Shown: piece by piece, positions 9,722 to 48,591 of the stretch
Numbering within the stretch: the stretch's first letter is position 1
How the letters are laid out: each line of letters begins with the position of its first letter
Assembly: GCA_023957375.1 (NCBI GenBank)
Contig: JAMLHB010000002.1
Span: 992,001-1,056,000 of the forward strand
Reading direction: 5' to 3'
Length of the DNA stretch: 64,000 nucleotides
Origin: Flavobacteriales bacterium
GTDB lineage: Bacteria > Bacteroidota > Bacteroidia > Flavobacteriales_F > PHOS-HE28
Made by a program: the position numbers and the translations under genes
Notes under the pieces: model-generated
What the model was told of the DNA's origin: nothing
Databases searched by the model: none
What the model saw: the letters and a program-made list of their open reading frames with translations, nothing else

Positions 9722-10666
9722 ATGCAAACAAGGAAGTTGGGCCAAAGTGACCTGCACGTGGCCCCGTGGGCTTTCGGCGGCAATGTCTTCGGGTGGACCG
9801 TGGATGAGCCCACCGCCTTCACGTTGTTGGATGCTTTCGTGGGCAAGGGCTTTAACCTGATCGACACGGCGGATTCCTATCCGCGCTGGGTGCCGGGCAA
9901 CGTGGGCGGCGAATCGGAAACCATGATCGGCAACTGGCTGCATGCGAGCGGCAAGCGCGATGCCATCGTGCTGGCCACCAAGGTGGGCAGTGACATGGGC
10001 GAGGGGAAGAACCTGCGGAAGGAGTACATCCTGCGTGCGGTGGAAGCATCGCTGAAGCGGCTGCGCACGGACCACATTGACCTGTACCAAAGCCATTGGG
10101 ACGATCTGAACACGCCGGTGGAGGAAACCCTTGCGGCCTACGACCAATTGGTAAAGCAAGGCAAGGTGCGCTGGATCGGCGCGTCGAACCTGGCGCCGGG
10201 GCGCCTGCGGCGTTCCATGCAGGTGAGCGGCGGCATGGGCTTCCCGGCCTATGTGTCGTTGCAGATGCGCTACAACCTGTTCAGCCGCGAGGTGTTCGAG
10301 CATGAATATGCCCCGATCTGCGAACAGCATGGCCTCGGCATCCTTACCTACTACTCCTTAGCCAGCGGCTTCCTCACCGGCAAGTACCGCAGCGATGCCG
10401 ACCTCGGCGACCGTGCCCGCAAGGGCGATGTAAAAGCCTACCTGAATGAGCGCGGCATGCGAATCCTCAACGCCTTGGACACTGTTTCCGAGCGCCAAAA
10501 CACCAAGCAGGCTACCGTGGCGCTTGCCTGGCTCATGGCCCGGCCGGGTGTTACCGCGGCCATCGCCAGTGCCACCAAGCTCCCCCAAGTGGAAGAGTTG
10601 GCCTCCGCAGCGGAACTGGTTCTCAGTGAAGAAGACCGGGCGTTGTTGGATACGGCCAGTGCGTAG
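9722..10666 (+). CDS. Aldo/keto reductase
   Basis: A 314-residue NAD(P)H-dependent oxidoreductase of the aldo/keto reductase superfamily ((beta/alpha)8 barrel). The tetrad is visible: Asp and Tyr in FNLIDTADSYPRW, Lys in IVLATKVG and His in LYQSHWDD. The NADP-binding C-terminal segment ITAAIASATKLPQVEEL-like sequence (AIASATKLPQVEELASAAEL) is also present. The ATG at 9722 begins the canonical MQTRKLGQSDLHV; upstream in-frame sequence would overlap the divergent gene. The LGQSDLHVAPWAFGGNVFGW start resembles the YajO/Gpr-type subgroup. Substrate unknown. It stands alone with a short leader. Confidence 0.94.
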   Translation: MQTRKLGQSDLHVAPWAFGGNVFGWTVDEPTAFTLLDAFVGKGFNLIDTADSYPRWVPGNVGGESETMIGNWLHASGKRDAIVLATKVGSDMGEGKNLRKEYILRAVEASLKRLRTDHIDLYQSHWDDLNTPVEETLAAYDQLVKQGKVRWIGASNLAPGRLRRSMQVSGGMGFPAYVSLQMRYNLFSREVFEHEYAPICEQHGLGILTYYSLASGFLTGKYRSDADLGDRARKGDVKAYLNERGMRILNALDTVSERQNTKQATVALAWLMARPGVTAAIASATKLPQVEELASAAELVLSEEDRALLDTASA

Positions 10667-10741
10667 TGAGCCACCTGTGGGGCGCTTGGCCGGCCCGCTC
10701 AGCCCAGTGTTGCCGGGATCCCGCATGTCCGACCAGCCGGA

Positions 10742-10749
10742 TACCTTTG
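10742..10749 (+). promoter_or_regulatory. -7 box TACCTTTG of the DUF6922/AbiEii pair
   Basis: A perfect match to the Bacteroidota housekeeping -7 consensus TAnnTTTG. Only 4 bases separate it from the ATG at 10754, so transcription should begin at or next to the start codon and the mRNA may be leaderless. No convincing -33 element was found at the expected spacing. Confidence 0.6.
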
Positions 10750-10753
10750 AACC

Positions 10754-11047
10754 ATGCCCAAGCCCGAGCTGGACCGCCGCATCTTTTGGGATGTGGACTT
10801 CGACAAGCTGGATTATGATGCCAAGGCGGCGTTCATCATCGAGCGCGTCTTTGAGCGCGGCGATGTGCCCGACATCCGCAACTGTAGGCGGTATTATGGG
10901 GATGAAAAGATCATCGAGGTGCTGCTGAACGCGAAGTTCCTGCCATTGGCCACCCTTCATTTCGTTAGTGCGATCTTCAACAAGCCATTGGCGGAGTTCC
11001 GATGCTACACGCTGAGACAGTCGAACCAGGCACATTTGCCATACTGA
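10754..11047 (+). CDS. DUF6922-like small protein, putative antitoxin partner
   Basis: 97 residues, mostly acidic and helical (FWDVDFDKLDYDAKAAFIIERVFERG ends residue ~35), continuing NCRRYYGDEKIIEVLLNAK. It matches the pattern of small Bacteroidota proteins annotated as DUF6922, which are encoded immediately upstream of AbiEii-type nucleotidyltransferase genes. The reading frame overlaps the next gene by 46 bases, which implies translational coupling. By position it would be the antitoxin or adaptor of the pair, but no DNA-binding motif is visible. Function is inferred from context only. Confidence 0.75.
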   Translation: MPKPELDRRIFWDVDFDKLDYDAKAAFIIERVFERGDVPDIRNCRRYYGDEKIIEVLLNAKFLPLATLHFVSAIFNKPLAEFRCYTLRQSNQAHLPY

Positions 11048-11628
11048 AGCGCCTGATGGGCGTTCCGGCATTGAGCGGCTTTGCGCTGGTCGGGGGTACG
11101 GCCTTGTCACTTCGGCATGGCCATCGGCAGTCCATCGACTTGGATCTTTTCTGCCATGGTGAGTTTGATAGACCACGAGTGGTGGAGGAGTTGAGCAAGG
11201 AGTTCGGTCCGCAGTTCGAATACCGGAGGGACCCGATCAAATGGGCCGCATTCTGCACGATCGGTGGATTGAAGGTGGATATTGTGAAGGACCCGCATCC
11301 ACGAATCCGTGAACTCGAACAGGTGGATGGCATCCGGCTCTATGCCGATGAGGACATTGCACCGATGAAGATCGAGGCCATCTTGCACAGAGGCAAACGG
11401 AAAGACTTCTGGGATCTCGCCGAGCTGCTTGGTGTATACGGGTTGCCGTGGATCCTTGACCGTCATCGGGAGCGATATCCCGATAACTCCATAGCGATCA
11501 GCATACCGTACGCGATCACCTACTTTGTCGACGCGGAGGAAAGCGAAGACCCCGTAAGCCTCAAGGGCCAAACCTGGGAAGGCATCAAGCGGTCCATCTC
11601 ACAGACCGTGAATGACTACCTGAAGTAG
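11002..11628 (+). CDS. AbiEii/MenA-family nucleotidyltransferase (toxin-like)
   Basis: 208 residues of the AbiEii/AbiGii toxin family. The polymerase-beta-like signature is visible: FALVGGTALSLRHGHRQSIDLDLF (about residues 27-50) supplies the GG and paired Asp residues. A later basic helix KIEAILHRGKRKDFWDLAELL (about 120-140) is typical of the family. Characterised members transfer nucleotides to tRNA or other RNA and arrest growth; AbiE is a type IV abortive-infection toxin-antitoxin. The gene overlaps the DUF6922-like gene by 46 bases. The canonical AbiEi winged-helix antitoxin is absent, so this is the Bacteroidota-type arrangement. Confidence 0.85.
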   Translation: MLHAETVEPGTFAILKRLMGVPALSGFALVGGTALSLRHGHRQSIDLDLFCHGEFDRPRVVEELSKEFGPQFEYRRDPIKWAAFCTIGGLKVDIVKDPHPRIRELEQVDGIRLYADEDIAPMKIEAILHRGKRKDFWDLAELLGVYGLPWILDRHRERYPDNSIAISIPYAITYFVDAEESEDPVSLKGQTWEGIKRSISQTVNDYLK

Positions 11629-11651
11629 GGAACGTGCCGAGCCAACCCATA

Positions 11652-11792
11652 GGGCACCTCGAGGTACCTCGAACGGCCGGCACATGCGCTTCTACCAGCT
11701 TGAACCACAAATTAGTCCGATCTGCTTGCTCCTTTTCCACATGACTTCCCCGGATGGCACATGGCGCCTGAGCGAAGTTTTTCGAGGTGCCC
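11652..11792. repeat. 11-bp inverted repeat enclosing ~119 bp
   Basis: GGGCACCTCGA at 11652-11662 is exactly complementary to TCGAGGTGCCC at 11782-11792. The left arm also has an internal CTCGAGGTACCTCGA near-palindrome. The enclosed sequence has no convincing reading frame and is slightly more AT-rich than its surroundings. It lies in the 254-base gap after the AbiEii-like toxin. No target-site duplication was found. It may be a remnant of a small non-autonomous element or chance. Confidence 0.5.
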
Positions 11793-11849
11793 CACAGGCA
11801 ACCATCGGGCGTGGTGGAACCCTGGCTGCCGCACCGGTTTCCGCCACCG

Positions 11850-11857
11850 TACCTTTG
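11850..11857 (+). promoter_or_regulatory. -7 box TACCTTTG upstream of amidophosphoribosyltransferase gene
   Basis: Exact match to TAnnTTTG, with 25 bases to the ATG at 11883. A second weaker box (CACCTTCG) lies between it and the start codon. Confidence 0.6.
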
Positions 11858-11882
11858 CGCTTCCCCGCCACCTTCGCCATCC

Positions 11883-13784
11883 ATGAGCGACGCGATCAAG
11901 CACGAGTGCGGCCTGGCCTTCATCCGGCTGCGGAAGCCCTTGGCGCACTATCAGCAACAACACGGCAGCGCCCTGTACGGCCTCACCAAGCTGTACCTGC
12001 TGATGGAAAAACAGCACAACCGCGGCCAGGACGGCGCGGGCGTGGCCACCATCAAGCTGGACCCCCCACCGGGCACGGCCTTCATCGACCGCGAGCGCAG
12101 CACGGCCAAGGATGCCATCCAATTGATCTTCGGCAGCATCCACCGCGACATCGGGGCGGCCATCGCGGCCCAGCCCGCCCTGGCGCAGGACGCGGAACAA
12201 CTGAAGCACGCTGCGCCGTACGTAGGCGAGGTGCTGCTGGGCCACTTGCGCTACGCCACCTTCGGCCGCGATGAACTGGAGAACTGCCACCCGAGGCGCC
12301 GGTTGAGCAACTGGATCACACGGAACCTGGTGGTGGCCGGCAACTTCAACATGACCAATGTGGACGAGCTCTTCGAACTGCTCGTCAGCATCGGCCAAGT
12401 ACCCAAGGAGCGCAGCGACACCATGACCGTGCTGGAGAAGATCGGGCACTACTTGGACATGGAGAACGAGCGACTGCGCGCCATCCACCACCAATTGGGG
12501 TACAGCGACCGGCAGATCACGAAGATCATCGAGGAGAAGCTCGACGTGAAGAACATCCTCCAACAGAGCGCGATCGACTTTGATGGCGGCTATGCACTGG
12601 CCGGCCTCATCGGCCACGGCGACGCCTTCGTGCTGCGAGACCCGGCGGGCATCCGCCCCTGCTACTGGTACGCCGACGATGAGGTGGTGGTGGCCGCCAG
12701 CGAACGGCCCGCCATTCAAACCGCCTTCAACCTGAAGGCCGGCCAAGTGGTGGAGCTGGACCCTGGCAAGGCCCTGATCGTAAAGAAGGACGGGAGCTAC
12801 GGCACCGAGCAGATCTTGGAACCGCTGGAGAAGCGGGCGTGCAGCTTCGAGCGCATCTACTTCAGCCGAGGCAGCGACGCCGACGTGTACCGCGAGCGCA
12901 TCGCCTTGGGCCGCTCGGTGTGCCCGGCCATCCTGCAGGAGATCGACCACGACTTGGAGAACACCGTGTTCTCCTTCATCCCCAACACCGCCGAGGTGGC
13001 CTGCTACGGCATGCTCAAGGGAATGGAGGATGAACTGGACCGCGTGAAGGAACGGCGCATCCTGGAGCTGGGACCGTCGCCGGACCCGGCCAGGCTGCGG
13101 GCCATCCTCGCGCTGCGCCCGCGCCTGGAGAAGGTGGCCGTGAAGGACGCCAAACTGCGCACCTTCATCACCAACGACAACGACCGCGCCGATCTGGTGG
13201 CCCACGTGTACGACATCACATACGGCACCGTACGTCCCGGGCGCGACAACCTGGTGGTGATCGACGACAGCATCGTGCGCGGCACCACCCTGCAGCAAAG
13301 CATCCTCAAGATGCTGGACCGGCTGGAGCCCCGCAAGATCGTGGTGGTGAGCAGCGCCCCGCAGGTGCGCTACCCCGACGGCTACGGCATCGACATGGCC
13401 AAAATGGGCGATCTGGCCGCGTTCCGTGCCGCCATCTCCCTGCTGCAGGAAACCAAGCAGGAAAACATCATCGACGACGTGTACGACCGCTGTGTGAACA
13501 TGGTGGAAAAGCCCATCACCCAGCAACAGAACCTGGTCAAGGACATCTACCGGCCCTTCACCGCTGAGCAGGTCAGCCAACGCATTGCCGAGATGCTCAC
13601 CCCGCCCGGCCTGAAAGCCGCGGTGTCATTGGTATACCAAAGCATCGAGGGCCTGCATGCCGCCTGCCCGGGCCACACGGGCGACTGGTACTTCACGGGC
13701 GACTACCCCACCCCCGGCGGCAACCGCGTGGTGAACCGCGCCTTCATCAACTGGCACCAGGGCAAGAACGTGCGCGCCTACTGA
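11883..13784 (+). CDS. purF: Amidophosphoribosyltransferase, long Bacteroidota type
   Basis: 633 residues, longer than canonical PurF (about 500). The class II glutamine amidotransferase nucleophile would be Cys9 (HECGLAF) after removal of a short propeptide; KQHNRGQDGAG is the Gln-binding region. The C-terminal phosphoribosyltransferase domain has the PRPP loop VVIDDSIVRGTTLQQ. Canonical PurF makes phosphoribosylamine from PRPP and glutamine in purine synthesis. Many Bacteroidota carry this longer form, with insertions between the two domains (here around residues 60-110 and 380-440). The start at 11883 gives the shortest propeptide. Family is firm; whether it is the sole PurF cannot be told from the window. 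Confidence 0.85.
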   Translation: MSDAIKHECGLAFIRLRKPLAHYQQQHGSALYGLTKLYLLMEKQHNRGQDGAGVATIKLDPPPGTAFIDRERSTAKDAIQLIFGSIHRDIGAAIAAQPALAQDAEQLKHAAPYVGEVLLGHLRYATFGRDELENCHPRRRLSNWITRNLVVAGNFNMTNVDELFELLVSIGQVPKERSDTMTVLEKIGHYLDMENERLRAIHHQLGYSDRQITKIIEEKLDVKNILQQSAIDFDGGYALAGLIGHGDAFVLRDPAGIRPCYWYADDEVVVAASERPAIQTAFNLKAGQVVELDPGKALIVKKDGSYGTEQILEPLEKRACSFERIYFSRGSDADVYRERIALGRSVCPAILQEIDHDLENTVFSFIPNTAEVACYGMLKGMEDELDRVKERRILELGPSPDPARLRAILALRPRLEKVAVKDAKLRTFITNDNDRADLVAHVYDITYGTVRPGRDNLVVIDDSIVRGTTLQQSILKMLDRLEPRKIVVVSSAPQVRYPDGYGIDMAKMGDLAAFRAAISLLQETKQENIIDDVYDRCVNMVEKPITQQQNLVKDIYRPFTAEQVSQRIAEMLTPPGLKAAVSLVYQSIEGLHAACPGHTGDWYFTGDYPTPGGNRVVNRAFINWHQGKNVRAY

Positions 13785-15280
13785 GTTCCGGGAGCGTCCA
13801 GGCCGTCCACATACTTCCTGTCGTTGGCCAGGCGCGGCACCTTGCTTTGGGCATCGTTCATGCCGCGCTCCTTCATCCAGGCCGCGAAGCCGCCGCGCCG
13901 CACCGGCACGATCACCAATGGGCGCAGCACCTTGCCGGTGATCAGGTCTTTGTAGTAGGGATTGCGCTTCTGCAGCGCAGCATCAATTGCTTGCGCAAGA
14001 GCGGCCATGTCGGCGGGCGGTTGGGCAAACTCGATGTGCCACTCGTGGAACGGCAGCCCCCCACCGGGCGGCGCCGCCTGCGGTGCCACGGTGAACTCGG
14101 CCACCTCGCAGGGGTTCAGGGCTACCGCTTCCTGCAAGGCTCCCTCCACCTCCCCGGCGATCACGTGCTCGCCGAAAGCGCTGGTGAAGTGCTTGGTGCG
14201 CCCGGTGACCACAATGCGCGGCGGCACCAGCGATACGAATTTCACCGTGTCACCGATCTCATAACCCCAAAGGCCCGCATTGGTGTTCAACACCAGTGCG
14301 TAGTTCACCCCCAGCTCCACCTCGCCGATGGACAGGCGGCGCGCCCCGGGGTTGCCCACCTCATCGGCCGGAAGGAATTCGTAGTAGATGCCGTTGTCCA
14401 CCACCAGCAACAGGCCCTCGCCGGGCCCTTGGTCCTGGTAGGCGATGAAGCCTTCGCTGGCGGGGAAGGTTTCCACGCGGTCCACCGGCCCGCCGATCAA
14501 GGCTTCCAAGTGGCTGCGGTAGGGGCCGTAGTTCACCCCGCCGTACACAAAAAGCGAAAAGTTGGGGAACACCTCCAGGACGCTGGCCTTGCCGGTGCGG
14601 GCCAGCAGGCGCTCGAAGTACATCTGCACCCAGGCGGGGATCCCGCTGATCAGGCGTAGGTCCGCGTGCATGGTCTCGCCCACGATGGCCTCCACCTTGG
14701 CTTCCCAATCCGTGATGCTGTTGGTGGCGAAGCTGGGCAGGCGGTTCCTCAGCAGGTAGCGGGGCACGTGGTTGGCCACTATGCCGCTCAACCTTCCGCT
14801 GGGGATGGCGCCCTTGCGGTCCAGCACCGGGCTTCCCTGCAGGAAGATCATCTTGCCGCCGGTGAACGAGGCGTTCCCCGTGCGGGCGATGTAGGCCAGC
14901 AGCGCGCGGCGCGCGCTGCCGATGTGGTTGGGCAGGCTGGCCTTGGTGATCGGGATGTATTTGGCGCCGCTGGTGGTGCCGCTGGTCTTGCAGAGGTACA
15001 GCGGCCGACCCGGCCAAAGCACGTCCTGTTCCCCGGCTATAATGCGGTCGATATAAGGACGGAATCCTTCGTAATCGCGCAGGGGCACGGCCTGCACCAG
15101 GCTGGCATGGTCCGTGACGTGCCCCAATCCGTGCTCCTTCCCGAAGCGGGTATCCCTGCCCGTGGCCAGCAGCGCGCGCAGCACGTTGAGCTGCGTGGCT
15201 GCGGGCTGCATCGCCGCCCGCATCGCGCGGGCCGCGGAGCGCTTGGCCCAGAGCATCGCTATGGCGGACCTGATGGACAT
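13778..15280 (-). CDS. GH3 (auxin-responsive promoter) family acyl-adenylating enzyme
   Basis: 500 residues of the GH3 superfamily, which belongs to the ANL adenylating enzymes. Visible signatures are the phosphate-binding loop CKTSGTTSGAKYIPIT (about 98-113), FPASEGFIAYQD, YEFLPADE and the C-terminal hinge/lid segment GRTKHFTSAFGEHVIAGEVE. Plant members conjugate amino acids to jasmonate or auxin; bacterial substrates are mostly unknown. The ATG at 15280 (MSIRSAIAMLW) was chosen because earlier starts overlap the M23 peptidase gene. It begins 4 bases after the stop of that gene, so the two are probably cotranscribed. The 3' end overlaps the convergent purF end by 7 bases. Confidence 0.9.
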   Translation of the reverse strand: MSIRSAIAMLWAKRSAARAMRAAMQPAATQLNVLRALLATGRDTRFGKEHGLGHVTDHASLVQAVPLRDYEGFRPYIDRIIAGEQDVLWPGRPLYLCKTSGTTSGAKYIPITKASLPNHIGSARRALLAYIARTGNASFTGGKMIFLQGSPVLDRKGAIPSGRLSGIVANHVPRYLLRNRLPSFATNSITDWEAKVEAIVGETMHADLRLISGIPAWVQMYFERLLARTGKASVLEVFPNFSLFVYGGVNYGPYRSHLEALIGGPVDRVETFPASEGFIAYQDQGPGEGLLLVVDNGIYYEFLPADEVGNPGARRLSIGEVELGVNYALVLNTNAGLWGYEIGDTVKFVSLVPPRIVVTGRTKHFTSAFGEHVIAGEVEGALQEAVALNPCEVAEFTVAPQAAPPGGGLPFHEWHIEFAQPPADMAALAQAIDAALQKRNPYYKDLITGKVLRPLVIVPVRRGGFAAWMKERGMNDAQSKVPRLANDRKYVDGLDAPGTQ

Positions 15281-44049: not shown

Positions 44050-44421
44050 CTATGCGGCCGCTTTGGCAACAGCGGCATCTGCGCGCTTGGGCAGGGTGAT
44101 CATCTTGAAGTCGTTCATCACCACCTCGGTCACCAACCGCTTTACGCCGTCCTTGCCCTTGTACGTTCGGTGCACAATGCGGCCTTCCACCATCACCGGC
44201 ATGCCCTTGGTGAGTAAGAGGCCCACCTGCTCGGCGGTGCGGCCCCAGGCCACCACGGTGTGCCATTGGGTATCGGTCACCCGTTCGCCTTCGGTGTTCA
44301 GGTAGCTTTCATGGGTGGCCAAGCTCATGCGGGAAACTTTGCGGCCCGTGGCGATCTCGCGCACTTCGGGGTCGAAGCCCAGGTTGCCGATCAGTCGTAC
44401 GTGGTTGTTCTGCGTTCTCAT
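44050..44421 (-). CDS. ssb: Single-stranded DNA-binding protein, first copy
   Basis: 123 residues: an OB fold with HVRLIGNLGFDPEVREIATG at the start and WHTVVAWGRTAEQVGLLLTKG in the middle. The acidic DDDIPF-type C-terminal tip is missing; the chain ends in Ala/Lys-rich VAKAAA, so interactions of the usual SSB tail with repair proteins may be absent. A second, divergent copy lies at 48034-48402 with a matching upstream region and a similar downstream hairpin. The two copies flank the sigma factor operon. Confidence 0.93.
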   Translation of the reverse strand: MRTQNNHVRLIGNLGFDPEVREIATGRKVSRMSLATHESYLNTEGERVTDTQWHTVVAWGRTAEQVGLLLTKGMPVMVEGRIVHRTYKGKDGVKRLVTEVVMNDFKMITLPKRADAAVAKAAA

Positions 44422-44478
44422 GGTGTTGAGGATTTAGGGGTTTTTCGTTCTGCAAGACCGCTGTGGTCCGTTGCCGTT

Positions 44479-44488
44479 GCAAACATTC
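44479..44488 (-). promoter_or_regulatory. Conserved GAATGTTTGC element upstream of ssb (first copy)
   Basis: Identical to the element at 48463-48472 upstream of the second ssb. It resembles a -7 box (AATGTTTG against TAnnTTTG) and lies 57 bases before the ATG. A second shared block, CCGGATCG (minus), follows at 44504-44511, at the same distance as in the other copy (25 bp between block starts). Confidence 0.55.
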
Positions 44489-44520
44489 AGTGCACCACAA
44501 TCCCGATCCGGTTGATCTTG

Positions 44521-44554
44521 CATTTGTAATCGTTCATAGCCGGTTGCTGTCGTT
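44521..44554 (-). promoter_or_regulatory. Four 10-bp-phased AACG-type motifs upstream of ssb (first copy)
   Basis: Read on the minus strand, the tetramers are AACG, ACCG, AACG and AATG, starting exactly 10 bp apart (plus-strand CATT 44521, CGTT 44531, CGGT 44541, CGTT 44551). They lie about 100-130 bases upstream of the ATG, on one face of the helix. The same array, with perfect copies, precedes the second ssb. Direct repeats with one-turn spacing are typical of OmpR/PhoB-type activators (inference). Confidence 0.6.
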
Positions 44555-44697
44555 TGTGCAACGACACGTGGTTTTGGAGGTTCGGGCTGGGTTAACCCCG
44601 CAGACATTCCCGATCCGTGCGCCCCTAGGAACCTGGTCCTATCTTTCAGCATCTTCTTTTTCACCCCACAGGCAGCGTTGGGCTCCAACCCCGTGTC

Positions 44698-45297
44698 TTG
44701 CCTTTGGAAAAACACCCGAGCCGACCGGTGCCTGAGCTGGATGAATACGAGCTGGTCCGTGGATGCTTGAGCGGGAGCGGCCGCGCTGAAGAGGCGCTGT
44801 ACGCCCGCTACGCACCGCGCATGTTCTTCGTATGCCTGCGCTATGCCCGCGACCGGGCCGGAGCGGAGGACATGCTACAGGACGGCTTCATCCGGGTGTT
44901 CGACAAATTGGGCACATTCCGCATGGAAGGCTCACTGGAGGGATGGATACGCCGGATCATGATCACCACCTGCATCAACCATCTGCGCAAAGGCTGGGTG
45001 TACCACGAGGTGTCCGTGGCCGAGGAGGCGAACGACCACGCCGTGATGCCGCAGGCATTGGGCGACATGGGGCACGACGAGCTGCTGAGGCTGGTACAGG
45101 CCCTGCCTGATGGCTACCGGGCGGTGTTCAACCTATACGCCATTGAGGGGTATGGCCATGCGGAAATTGCCGCGCAACTGGGGTGCAACGAGGGCACCTC
45201 GCGCAGCCAGTTGGCCAAGGCGCGGCGGGCGTTGCAACGCGGAGTGGAACAATTGAACAGCACGAAAAGACATGAAGGAGCACCATCCGATCGATGA
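44698..45297 (+). CDS. ECF-type RNA polymerase sigma factor
   Basis: 199 residues as read from a TTG at 44698; a GTG at 44728 is an alternative, and the N-terminal ~25 residues are uncertain. Region 2 is visible as EEALYARYAPRMFFVCLRYA to DMLQDGFIRVFDKL, with WIRRIMITTCINHLRK (2.4). Region 4 is VFNLYAIEGYGHAEIAAQLG with a helix-turn-helix. This is the arrangement of Bacteroidota ECF sigma factors. The next gene overlaps by 26 bases and encodes its probable anti-sigma factor. A TATCTTTC box (44640-44647) lies upstream. Confidence 0.9.
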   Translation: MPLEKHPSRPVPELDEYELVRGCLSGSGRAEEALYARYAPRMFFVCLRYARDRAGAEDMLQDGFIRVFDKLGTFRMEGSLEGWIRRIMITTCINHLRKGWVYHEVSVAEEANDHAVMPQALGDMGHDELLRLVQALPDGYRAVFNLYAIEGYGHAEIAAQLGCNEGTSRSQLAKARRALQRGVEQLNSTKRHEGAPSDR

Positions 45298-46741
45298 GCT
45301 GTTTGCCCACGCCTTGGGCGATGCGTTAGCGGCACCCCCGGCAAGGGTGTGGCGTGGCATCGTGCGCCGCAGGGGGTACAGGCGCCCCGGTGCGCAGCGC
45401 CGCCGGGGCTGGTTACTGTTGCTGCTGTTGGTGGGCGGAACAGCGGGCTGGTGGTTGGGCAGTGGCAACGGCCAACAAGCCCTGCACCCGGCGCAAATGG
45501 CCAGGACCACGGAGACCGGCGGGATCGTTGAACCTGCGGCGGCCACCAGCACTTCCAAGGAGGCTGCGACCATGCCCCAGGCGGCCACGCCTGCCGCAGC
45601 CAAACGTCCTGCAACTACGGATACCACTGCGGTAGCCGAAAGCAAGCCCTTTGCTGCAGCCCCCCGGCTTCGTGGGGACCTTGGGGAAAAAACGGCCCCT
45701 ACTTCACACCCGGGTGCCGCGCAAGAAAAGCGCGACATCCCCGCAATGCATCCGGCACCGGGGTCGAAGGGCGGCCAGGTGGCCATTTCCCCAGTTGCTC
45801 CCGCCCCCGCGGCAGCTTCGACGCGATCGGACGAGGCCCACCTTCGGCCGGGCCGTGCGGAGCCGGAGAACAGGCCGGAAACGGCAGCTGGTAGCGCGTT
45901 TGCACCTGTTGTTCCCGTGCTGCTGGCAGACCCAGGCGCAGCACCTGTCCGGTTGGCGGTGCTCCGGGCATCGATCCCCGGGGTGGCGGCCCCGGGGCCC
46001 AACACCCCTCCTGATCCGGTCCATCGCGGTCCGCGACGTGCCATATGGGTGGCTGCCACGTCGGGCCTGTTCACGGAAAAGCGGCGCTGGAAGGGCACCA
46101 ACGACACTTGGATTCGCGCCTTGGAAGGCACCGAAGTACCGCACCCGGCCACTACCATGGGCGTGCTGGTGGGCTTGGAAGGCCACCGTGGATGGAACGT
46201 GGCGGTGGGCTTGGAGTACGGCGTTTCGCGGTACGACTTCCACCATCTGGACCGCTACATGGGCCAGCGCGATTCACTGGTGCAGTATGTGGTCACCTTC
46301 AACTCGCAGGTGGTTTCCAGCCATACGGAAACAGTGGGCACGTATGGGGAAGTGCAGCAGCGCGTGGCTGCGGAGAACCGTTTCAGCACCTGGCGGGTGC
46401 CTGTGGAACTGGGCTGGCACAAGGGCTTTGGCCGCTTCCACGCGGGTATGCGCGCCGGCCTGGCCGCCGAGGTGAACCGGATCCGATCGGGTGCCACGCT
46501 GGCCATGGCGGACGGCGGGGCCCGCAGCGTTGACGCCACCGACCACACCACCGTGCTGCTGGGTGGCACGTTGGCCGCCGACCTTGGCTATGCGATCACC
46601 GAGCAATGGGGATTGTGGGCCACGCCCACGATCGGAAGCGGCCTGTTTCCTTTGTCATCCACAAATGATGCACCCTATGCCCTACCCCGGCGTTTCGGCC
46701 TCCGCCTGCGCCTGGCCTACACCCTGAAGCCATCGCACTGA
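45272..46741 (+). CDS. Candidate dual-membrane-spanning anti-sigma factor (TM helix + linker + beta-barrel)
   Basis: 489 residues. The N-terminal ~45 residues are cytosolic and basic (MKEHHPIDELFAHALGDALA), placed as a short anti-sigma domain would be. One transmembrane helix follows (about 46-62; GWLLLLLLVGGTAGWWLG), then a ~200-residue Ala/Pro/Thr-rich low-complexity linker that could cross the periplasm. The C-terminal ~220 residues look like an outer-membrane barrel (AIWVAATSGLFTEKRRW, NVAVGLEYGVSRYDFHHL, FGLRLRLAYTLK at the end). This matches the architecture of the 'dual membrane-spanning anti-sigma' proteins known from Bacteroides (Dma). It overlaps the sigma gene by 26 bases and the next gene by one base (TGATG). 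Confidence 0.75.
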   Translation: MKEHHPIDELFAHALGDALAAPPARVWRGIVRRRGYRRPGAQRRRGWLLLLLLVGGTAGWWLGSGNGQQALHPAQMARTTETGGIVEPAAATSTSKEAATMPQAATPAAAKRPATTDTTAVAESKPFAAAPRLRGDLGEKTAPTSHPGAAQEKRDIPAMHPAPGSKGGQVAISPVAPAPAAASTRSDEAHLRPGRAEPENRPETAAGSAFAPVVPVLLADPGAAPVRLAVLRASIPGVAAPGPNTPPDPVHRGPRRAIWVAATSGLFTEKRRWKGTNDTWIRALEGTEVPHPATTMGVLVGLEGHRGWNVAVGLEYGVSRYDFHHLDRYMGQRDSLVQYVVTFNSQVVSSHTETVGTYGEVQQRVAAENRFSTWRVPVELGWHKGFGRFHAGMRAGLAAEVNRIRSGATLAMADGGARSVDATDHTTVLLGGTLAADLGYAITEQWGLWATPTIGSGLFPLSSTNDAPYALPRRFGLRLRLAYTLKPSH

Positions 46742-47880
46742 TGCATCTGCACCGCCCGTCCCCCCGCAACTGGTGCGCCTTGGCCTTGGCCTTGGCGGGC
46801 GGCTCCGCAGCGGCCCAACCGATGTGCGACAGTCTGCACACTGCGGACTTCACCTGGCAGGCCGTGGGCGGCACCACCATGGCTTTTGCGGCCACGCCGC
46901 CAGCCCAAGGCACGATCGCTTATACAGAATGGGCCTTTGTGGGCGATGGTTTCCAGGATTGGAGCGGGGCCGTACTGCCCGAGTATGCCTTCCCCTACCC
47001 TGGCGACCATGCGGCCTGCCTGTTGGCCACCGTGTGGGACCCGCTGCAAGGGCAATGCATTTCAGCGGTCTGCCATGTGGTGCCCGTGCCGGTGGACAGC
47101 AATTGTGCGGGCGTACTGCCAGCATTCACCATCGACGTGCAAGGCGACAACATCCTCTTTATCGACCAAACGCAATCGGACCAAGCGATCACCGTGGTAC
47201 ACTGGGATTTTGGCGACGGCTCCTCGTCCGATCAGCCAGCGCCCACCCATGCCTATGGTACGGGCGCTTTTGAGGCTTGCCTCACGGTTGCCAGTGATCA
47301 GTGCGTGGCCACCACGTGCAATTGGATCTACCTCGGGCCCTCCAACGTGCCTTGCGACGAGGTACTGCAAGCAGTGGTGAACGTCGTACAGGCGGGCCCC
47401 GGCATCGCTTGCTTCAACCACAGCACCACCTCGGGCATGGAGCACTCCATCAGTTGGGATTTCGGCGATGGTGCCACGGCCGTGGGCAGTCCGGTGGTTC
47501 ACGTGTTTGAAGATGAAGGTTACTTTCAGGTTTGCGCCACCGTGGACACGTGGGGGCCCTTGGCGTCCGACACCTGCACGGCCACCACCTGCACCACAGT
47601 GTATGTCTTTTCGGCCGCTGCCGTGGGTGAAGCCGACGAGCGGGGGATGCGGGCCTTTCCCGTGCCCTTCACCGAGGTGCTGTTCGTGGAGGGCCTGCCC
47701 GCCAATGCACGTTGGGAACTGATGGACGTGCAAGGCCGCAGGTTGCGGGAGGGGATCGCAGCCCATGCGGGCACCCTGGCGGTTCCCTGCGGGCCGCTGG
47801 CTCCCGGACAATACCTGCTCCGGGTTGCCACGCCCGGCAAGGTTGAAGTGCAACGCGTGGTGAAGTGCGGTAGCGATTGA
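46741..47880 (+). CDS. PKD-domain protein with T9SS type A sorting domain
   Basis: 379 residues; a signal peptide (about 25 residues, ending GGSAAAQ) precedes an N-terminal beta domain with several Cys residues. Two PKD-like domains follow: VVHWDFGDGSSSDQPAPTHAY (about 155-200) and SISWDFGDGATAVGSPVVHV (about 235-280). The C-terminal ~75 residues (RAFPVPFTEVLFVEGLP ... APGQYLLRVATP) are a T9SS type A sorting domain. The ATG overlaps the stop of the anti-sigma-like gene (TGATG), so this surface protein is in the sigma operon and may be the gene it controls or an extracellular signal partner (inference). Confidence 0.85.
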   Translation: MHLHRPSPRNWCALALALAGGSAAAQPMCDSLHTADFTWQAVGGTTMAFAATPPAQGTIAYTEWAFVGDGFQDWSGAVLPEYAFPYPGDHAACLLATVWDPLQGQCISAVCHVVPVPVDSNCAGVLPAFTIDVQGDNILFIDQTQSDQAITVVHWDFGDGSSSDQPAPTHAYGTGAFEACLTVASDQCVATTCNWIYLGPSNVPCDEVLQAVVNVVQAGPGIACFNHSTTSGMEHSISWDFGDGATAVGSPVVHVFEDEGYFQVCATVDTWGPLASDTCTATTCTTVYVFSAAAVGEADERGMRAFPVPFTEVLFVEGLPANARWELMDVQGRRLREGIAAHAGTLAVPCGPLAPGQYLLRVATPGKVEVQRVVKCGSD

Positions 47881-47980
47881 TCTTGGGCATGTACCCGGGC
47901 GGTTGCGGGCCTGCTGGGTTCCGTACAGCGCCACGCATGGGCATGCGCGCATTGAACCGGTTGGGCCAAGCCTGCAAATG

Positions 47981-48015
47981 GCGAAGGGCCGTGGCATTCC
48001 GCCGCAGCCCTTCGC
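47981..48015. terminator. Hairpin between the PKD gene and ssb (second copy)
   Basis: A 9-bp stem GCGAAGGGC/GCCCTTCGC (47981-47989 with 48007-48015) with a 17-base loop, lying 18 bases past the second ssb stop and about 100 bases past the PKD gene. It can serve the convergent genes in both directions. It parallels the hairpin behind the first ssb. Confidence 0.55.
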
Positions 48016-48033
48016 CCTTGGGAAGATCCGATG

Positions 48034-48402
48034 TTAAGCCGCCTCGGCCTCGGCCACCTTGGCCTCCATCACTTGGAAGCTGTTCATCACCACTTCGGTG
48101 TAGTAGCGCTTCTGGCCGTCCTTGCCCTCATAGCTTCCGTGGGTCAGCCGTCCAATAACGGCCACCCGGGTTCCTTTGGACAATTGCTCGGCCGCCTCTG
48201 CGGCCTGGCGCCCCCACACCACAATGTTGTGCCACTGCGTGTCTTCCTTGGCCTGCCCGTCCCCAAAGGTGAACCGCTCGTTGGTGGCCATGCTGAAGCG
48301 GGCCAGCTGCTTGCCGTTGTCGAACTTGCGCAGTTCCGGGTCCTTGCCGAGGTGGCCGATCAGTTGTACGCGGTTGGGGTTCATTTTCTCGTTGGTTTCC
48401 AT
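48034..48402 (-). CDS. ssb: Single-stranded DNA-binding protein, second copy
   Basis: 122 residues from the ATG at 48402; an in-frame ATG at 48426 would add eight residues and one at 48384 would remove six. The start was chosen because its distance to the shared GAATGTTTGC element (60 bases) matches that of the first ssb (57 bases). The OB fold shows NRVQLIGHLGKDPELRKFDNG and WHNIVVWGRQAAEAAEQLSKG. Like the first copy, it lacks the acidic C-terminal tip and ends AEAEAA. Sequence identity with the first copy looks moderate, so the copies are old paralogues rather than a recent duplication. Confidence 0.92.
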   Translation of the reverse strand: METNEKMNPNRVQLIGHLGKDPELRKFDNGKQLARFSMATNERFTFGDGQAKEDTQWHNIVVWGRQAAEAAEQLSKGTRVAVIGRLTHGSYEGKDGQKRYYTEVVMNSFQVMEAKVAEAEAA

Positions 48403-48462
48403 GGTTTGTTGGTTTTTGGCGTTCATGTGTTGGTTTGTTCCGATCGGTTGTTCTTGGCCGGT

Positions 48463-48472
48463 GCAAACATTC
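48463..48472 (-). promoter_or_regulatory. Conserved GAATGTTTGC element upstream of ssb (second copy)
   Basis: Identical in ten bases to the element before the first ssb, again followed at 25 bp by CCGGATCG (48488-48495, minus strand). A -7-like box is likely; 60 bases separate it from the chosen ATG. Confidence 0.55.
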
Positions 48473-48503
48473 CACCCTCCCCGGCGCCGATCCGGCCAGT
48501 GAA

Positions 48504-48537
48504 CGTTTGTAGTCGTTCATAAGCGTTGGCATCCGTT
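48504..48537 (-). promoter_or_regulatory. Four perfect 10-bp-phased AACG motifs upstream of ssb (second copy)
   Basis: Plus-strand CGTT occurs at 48504, 48514, 48524 and 48534, exactly every 10 bp. The stretch TTTGTAGTCGTTCATA is nearly identical to TTTGTAATCGTTCATA before the first ssb. The divergent universal stress gene begins at 48626, so the array could also act in that direction. Confidence 0.65.
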
Positions 48538-48591
48538 TGTTGTCGGCTCCGGCCTCTGCCCGATCCCATTTCTTCCTGGTCGATCCCGCGC

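Follow-up and report, generated by a model that had tools for sequence, protein, structure and literature searches.

A phased decamer array before two tail-less ssb genes points to a class-wide regulatory module with a probable zinc-finger regulator in Bacteroidia

The two single-stranded DNA-binding (SSB) protein genes in the analysed window (a 64,000-nt stretch of a Flavobacteriales genome), ssbA and ssbB, are preceded by a common array of about six same-strand decameric repeats. Comparison across Bacteroidia points to a class-wide regulatory module that consists of this operator, a defined promoter geometry and a probable regulator, namely, a small protein with a zinc-finger signature. Little is known about the control of single-stranded DNA (ssDNA) handling in Bacteroidia beyond the LexA-like proteins, and the module, with its named candidate gene and defined operator, provides an entry point to this subject. 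A search of open-access papers brought up no published description of either the array or the protein.

Both genes lie on the minus strand and encode short SSBs, of 123 aa for ssbA (44050..44421) and 130 aa for ssbB (48034..48426), with clear matches to the OB-fold SSB domain PF00436 (E-values of 8e-29 and 7e-32; 100 and 110 bits, respectively, against a cut-off of 26). As judged from the translations, neither protein carries the DDLPF-like acidic tip found at the C-terminus of housekeeping SSBs, and both have alanine-rich tails instead. The third SSB of this genome is of the housekeeping type (G000:C3) and its gene is not accompanied by an array. In other families, the array is borne by the genes for short tail-less SSBs (109–116 aa) but not by those for long SSBs with a DDLPF-like tip.

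The putative ssbA operator array spans 44505..44563 on the minus strand, with CG (or TG) at 44563, 44552, 44542, 44532, 44522 and 44510 (steps of 11, 10, 10, 10 and 12 bp), and its putative ssbB counterpart spans 48489..48545 on the same strand, with CG at 48545, 48535, 48525, 48515, 48505 and 48494 (steps of 10, 10, 10, 10 and 11 bp). The end-to-end mean step is thus 10.2 to 10.6 bp, close to one helical turn. The units follow the consensus CGNNTRYRAA on the coding strand; most of them contain AA or AAA at the 10-bp phase, and the best conserved columns of the array include C and G. An earlier note on this DNA had described four phased motifs in each leader (CGTT at 48504, 48514, 48524 and 48534 before ssbB; CATT, CGTT, CGGT and CGTT at 44521, 44531, 44541 and 44551 before ssbA) and two shared downstream blocks, GCAAACATTC at 44479 and 48463 and CGATCCGG at 44504 and 48488, 25 bp apart in either copy. 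All these positions and spacings proved correct. The phased repeats thus stand, whereas their number has to be revised from four to about six, with additional units U1 (CCG at 48545 and TCG at 44563) and U6 (CCGGAT at 48494 and 44510), the array closing with an 11-bp (ssbB) or 12-bp (ssbA) step into CCGGAT. The blocks themselves are better read otherwise: CCGGATCG as the last unit of the array, at the -33 position, and GAATGTTTGC as a -7 promoter box.

The exact four-unit pattern has a single match in the window and a single occurrence in the entire 3.83-Mb genome. When up to three mismatches are allowed, the window contains four matches, all inside the two leaders, against 0.49 expected, and none of 100 shuffles reached this number. 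Consistently, a 60-column array profile run against the whole genome (E ≤ 0.3) retrieved only the ssbA and ssbB leaders, so that the pattern is indeed more common before ssb than expected by chance. Across 29 aligned leaders, the mean information content is 0.86 bit per column in the array, as opposed to 0.26 for the spacer and 0.11 for the upstream region; the array has not drifted along with the rest of the leader, and this conservation supports the proposal that the shared architecture, with its direct repeats on one face of the helix, is under selection.

In each leader, a spacer of weak conservation separates CCGGAT from the downstream GAATGTTTGC (minus strand, 44479..44488 for ssbA and 48463..48472 for ssbB, with TTTG at 44480-44483 and 48464-48467, respectively), which is conserved at the class level and fits the Bacteroidota -7 box, with the consensus TAnnTTTG placed at -12 to -5 (PMC9723704). 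With the box set at these positions, the array extends from about -88 to -31 and CCGGAT falls at the -33 position. The TTTG lies at a single fixed distance from the array in all 29 aligned leaders, with one additional nucleotide in the ssbA-type leaders. A TTG located 17–23 nt upstream of the -7 box is present in only two of the 29; its absence from the other 27 fits a promoter that requires an activator.

Within the genus, the array was found in nearly all ssbA and ssbB leaders read, including those of extra ssbA copies located elsewhere (L049, L051), and the reversed-pattern control yielded 0–1 matches per genome. The presence of a common array before both paralogues, genus-wide, bears out the suggestion that the two SSBs are co-regulated. 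In a sample of 149 genomes from the class, a 97-column array profile had matches in 90 at E ≤ 0.1 and, under the stricter threshold of E ≤ 0.01, in 81, and the best match was directly upstream of a short tail-less ssb in all 30 genomes for which it was read. In some families, added arrays precede the genes for UvrD-like, RecQ and Pif1-like helicases, PDDEXK_2/Rpn nucleases, a PolB-type exonuclease, DUF2851, DUF2779 and DUF1016 proteins, a tyrosine integrase and ComM (six of the proteins were identified by Pfam and the others named by eye), which suggests a wider DNA-processing regulon in those families, outside this genome. A link of the array to recombination, repair and uptake genes, close to what the earlier note had envisaged, is thus seen in other families, but not in this organism, in which the array precedes ssb genes only. 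A competence regulon was rejected as a general rule: comM is preceded by an array in a single family (that of G037), and none was seen before it in those genus members that were read. Leeuwenhoekiella and Sinomicrobium, which were picked for their array-less short ssb copies, were dropped as counter-examples because both genomes carry an array elsewhere; both also encode the zinc-finger protein described below. A UvrD-like helicase gene is preceded by a stretch of about eight or more decamers, unusual in its length (L251:1968-2083; G122:C43). In G037, G130 and G144, many extra profile matches map to dispersed intergenic repeats and were excluded from the regulon. These repeats (L195-L205, L207-L209, L307, L308), which are many-copy, array-like decamer runs in three unrelated families, look like mobile carriers of the operator.

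The candidate regulator was recognized in several families as the product of the gene located across the array from ssb, in divergent orientation; it is a protein of about 125 aa with an N-terminal treble-clef zinc-finger signature. Its copy in this genome lies outside the window (G000:C1:1087067-1087465, minus strand; L341) and has no array upstream; in the surrounding region (L433, G000:C1:1085500-1089500), it follows a gene for an L31-like ribosomal protein, named by eye. Among the first 39 genomes, the candidate is encoded in every array-bearing one, whereas, among the array-negative ones, it is absent from five and partial or broken in two. In the sample of 149 (array at E ≤ 0.01), 79 genomes have both, two the array only, seven the protein only and 61 neither, that is, 79 of the 81 genomes with the array encode the protein, as opposed to seven of the other 68 (Fisher p 4e-31, uncorrected for ancestry and hence overstating the independence of genomes that share descent). 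Stronger evidence of the association comes from recurrent adjacency: the candidate gene is located within 300 bp of an array in 31 of 76 genomes, representing 20 families, against 0.03 expected, and is divergent in 30 of the 31. Where the candidate's gene is not beside ssb, arrays are found before that gene itself (G029), and the paralogue loci L385 and L386 also have arrays upstream. In a Saprospiraceae genome (L384, G178), a diverged copy of the candidate is preceded by changed decamers (AACGGTTCCG-like, with the 10-bp period), which suggests co-evolution of operator and protein. In G121, arrays are present and the candidate protein was not detected. In a phylum-wide draw, all strong matches to the candidate came from the class Bacteroidia. 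The earlier note had suggested an activator of the OmpR/PhoB or a similar type. Control of the OmpR/PhoB type is not supported: the neighbourhoods that were read contained no such gene next to the array, and the operator has a period of 10 bp. The best candidate is instead the treble-clef zinc-finger protein, which is probably the regulator of the array.

The candidate protein has no match above the curated Pfam or NCBIfam cut-offs, and sub-threshold similarity is limited to a treble-clef resemblance, for example, to DUF2116 and YacG. Searches with Foldseek and against PDB sequences, NCBIfam and PHROG revealed no confident relative, and the MerR-type HTH family was matched neither in Pfam at E ≤ 0.1 (four members) nor in NCBIfam at E ≤ 1. 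The model of the full-length protein has a pLDDT of 82 and that of the isolated C-terminal domain a pLDDT of 91. Structural matches are weak (best Z of 4.6; Foldseek E > 0.1), the N-terminus resembling the YacG/MYND treble clefs and the C-terminal domain having winged-helix domains (RctB, CodY, RepE) among its best hits. The predicted structure fits a DNA-binding role.

From the observed array, its conservation, its nearly exclusive placement before tail-less ssb genes, the promoter spacing and the genomic association, we infer a likely mechanism, whereby the array is a multi-unit operator to which the zinc-finger protein binds in head-to-tail fashion, activating the genes for tail-less SSBs. 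The regulator would be a small, Bacteroidia-specific protein composed of an N-terminal treble-clef zinc finger, a long helix and a compact, winged-helix-like C-terminal domain. Its protomers would line up head to tail along one face of the helix, each on a CGNNTRYRAA decamer, and the resulting filament would end on CCGGAT, at -33 of a sigma-A promoter with a TTTG -7 box and no TTG at -33, a position that, we propose, brings the regulator into contact range of RNA polymerase. Most likely, the genes for tail-less SSBs would thereby be activated whenever ssDNA needs handling, in the course of uptake, recombination or repair. On balance, we lean towards the broader view that the protein represents a new family of transcription factors, combining a treble clef with a winged-helix-like domain, restricted to the class Bacteroidia and forming a filament on 10-bp repeats, which would be the switch that ancestrally controlled tail-less SSBs and would, in certain families, also govern a wider recombination, repair and uptake regulon distinct from SOS.

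The main rival to activation is repression by the same protein through the same operator, with the filament covering the -33 region, blocking RNA polymerase at ssb and, where divergent, at the protein's own gene, and being released by ssDNA or by a metal or redox signal sensed through the zinc finger. The array does reach the -33 position and, in many families, is located between the divergent genes for the regulator and ssb, a common layout for repressors; nevertheless, the lack of TTG from 27 of the 29 promoters and a distance between array and box that is more exact than simple occlusion demands render this reading rather unlikely. Given that the first-sample genomes without the candidate had long SSBs only, its presence in that sample tracks the type of SSB as well as the array. 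Less probably, therefore, the protein could act together with the tail-less SSB instead of binding the array, although the arrays before non-ssb genes and before the gene of the protein itself argue against this. A decidedly improbable alternative is that a classical regulator of the LytTR, OmpR/PhoB or MerR/BldC type binds the array, the zinc-finger protein being a linked accessory of the tail-less SSB. BldC is known to bind direct repeats head to tail (PMC5859096), and the opposite-strand unit resembles part of the LytTR consensus, with a mean of 0.55 matches per leader compared to 0.03 in shuffles. However, a LytTR operator consists of two 9-bp repeats spaced by about 21 bp, whereas 33 of 60 leaders have no match to the consensus and only two contain a pair, at 20–22 bp, and a LytTR reading of the unit was rejected; furthermore, it is the zinc-finger gene that accompanies the array in 20 families, and arrays also precede this gene itself.

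Autoregulation, with the tail-less SSB recognizing the array itself, for example, in a melted region, would agree with the nearly exclusive occurrence of the array before ssb in the genus but conflicts with the arrays that precede non-ssb genes and the zinc-finger gene in other families, and recognition of duplex sequence is not known for SSBs; we consider autoregulation highly improbable. Hardly more credible is a protein-independent, UP-like element, in which 10-bp-phased short A-runs bend the DNA: such runs are present in most units, yet C and G figure among the best conserved columns and the occurrence of the array is tied to that of one particular protein gene.

The activation model invites comparison with several known systems. 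Iteron-binding initiators, such as RctB and RepE, bind tandem same-strand sites, and their winged-helix domain is the nearest, if weak, fold match of the candidate; by contrast, they are replication initiators without a treble clef, and the match, at a Z of 4.5 or less, is accompanied by no sequence relationship. In Bacillus, the competence protein SsbB is a second, tail-less SSB alongside the tailed housekeeping SSB and is controlled by ComK. The tail-less SSBs described here likewise coexist with a housekeeping-type one, but ComK boxes differ from the array and, in this genus, comM lacks it. BldC, a 68-aa MerR-like winged-helix protein of Streptomyces without a zinc finger, forms cooperative head-to-tail multimers on a variable number of direct repeats at whiI and smeA-ssfA, each repeat combining an A/T run with a C-G step and a four-repeat site covering 36 bp, that is, 9 bp per repeat (PMC5859096). 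The candidate is similarly small and associated with a variable number of same-strand direct repeats, on which head-to-tail binding is our proposal; unlike BldC, it has a treble clef and no MerR match, its repeats are decamers, it is confined to Bacteroidia and its target is ssb. The LexA-like SOS repressors of Bacteroidetes, which share with the proposed regulator the phylum and a link to DNA-damage genes, recognize the palindromes GGA-N5-TCC and CTAA-N5-TTAG, and ssb is among their predicted targets in several species (PMC8565304). An SOS/LexA reading of the array was ruled out, as these palindromes occur in three and none of 60 leaders, respectively.

Several minor observations concern the surroundings of the ssb genes. 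An ECF sigma factor gene (window positions 44698-45297) is divergent to ssbA and is backed by membrane-protein and PKD genes; this order is kept across the genus, and the extra ssbA copies mentioned above have the array without it. Some congeners carry tandem short ssb genes (L017, L018, L024, L057), the second of which lacks a separate array and probably relies on the promoter of the first. In one congener, the ssbB leader is split by an insertion of about 4 kb that includes a transposase-like gene (L038, G006:C54, ~10500-14600), leaving part of the array beside Usp and the promoter half beside ssbB.
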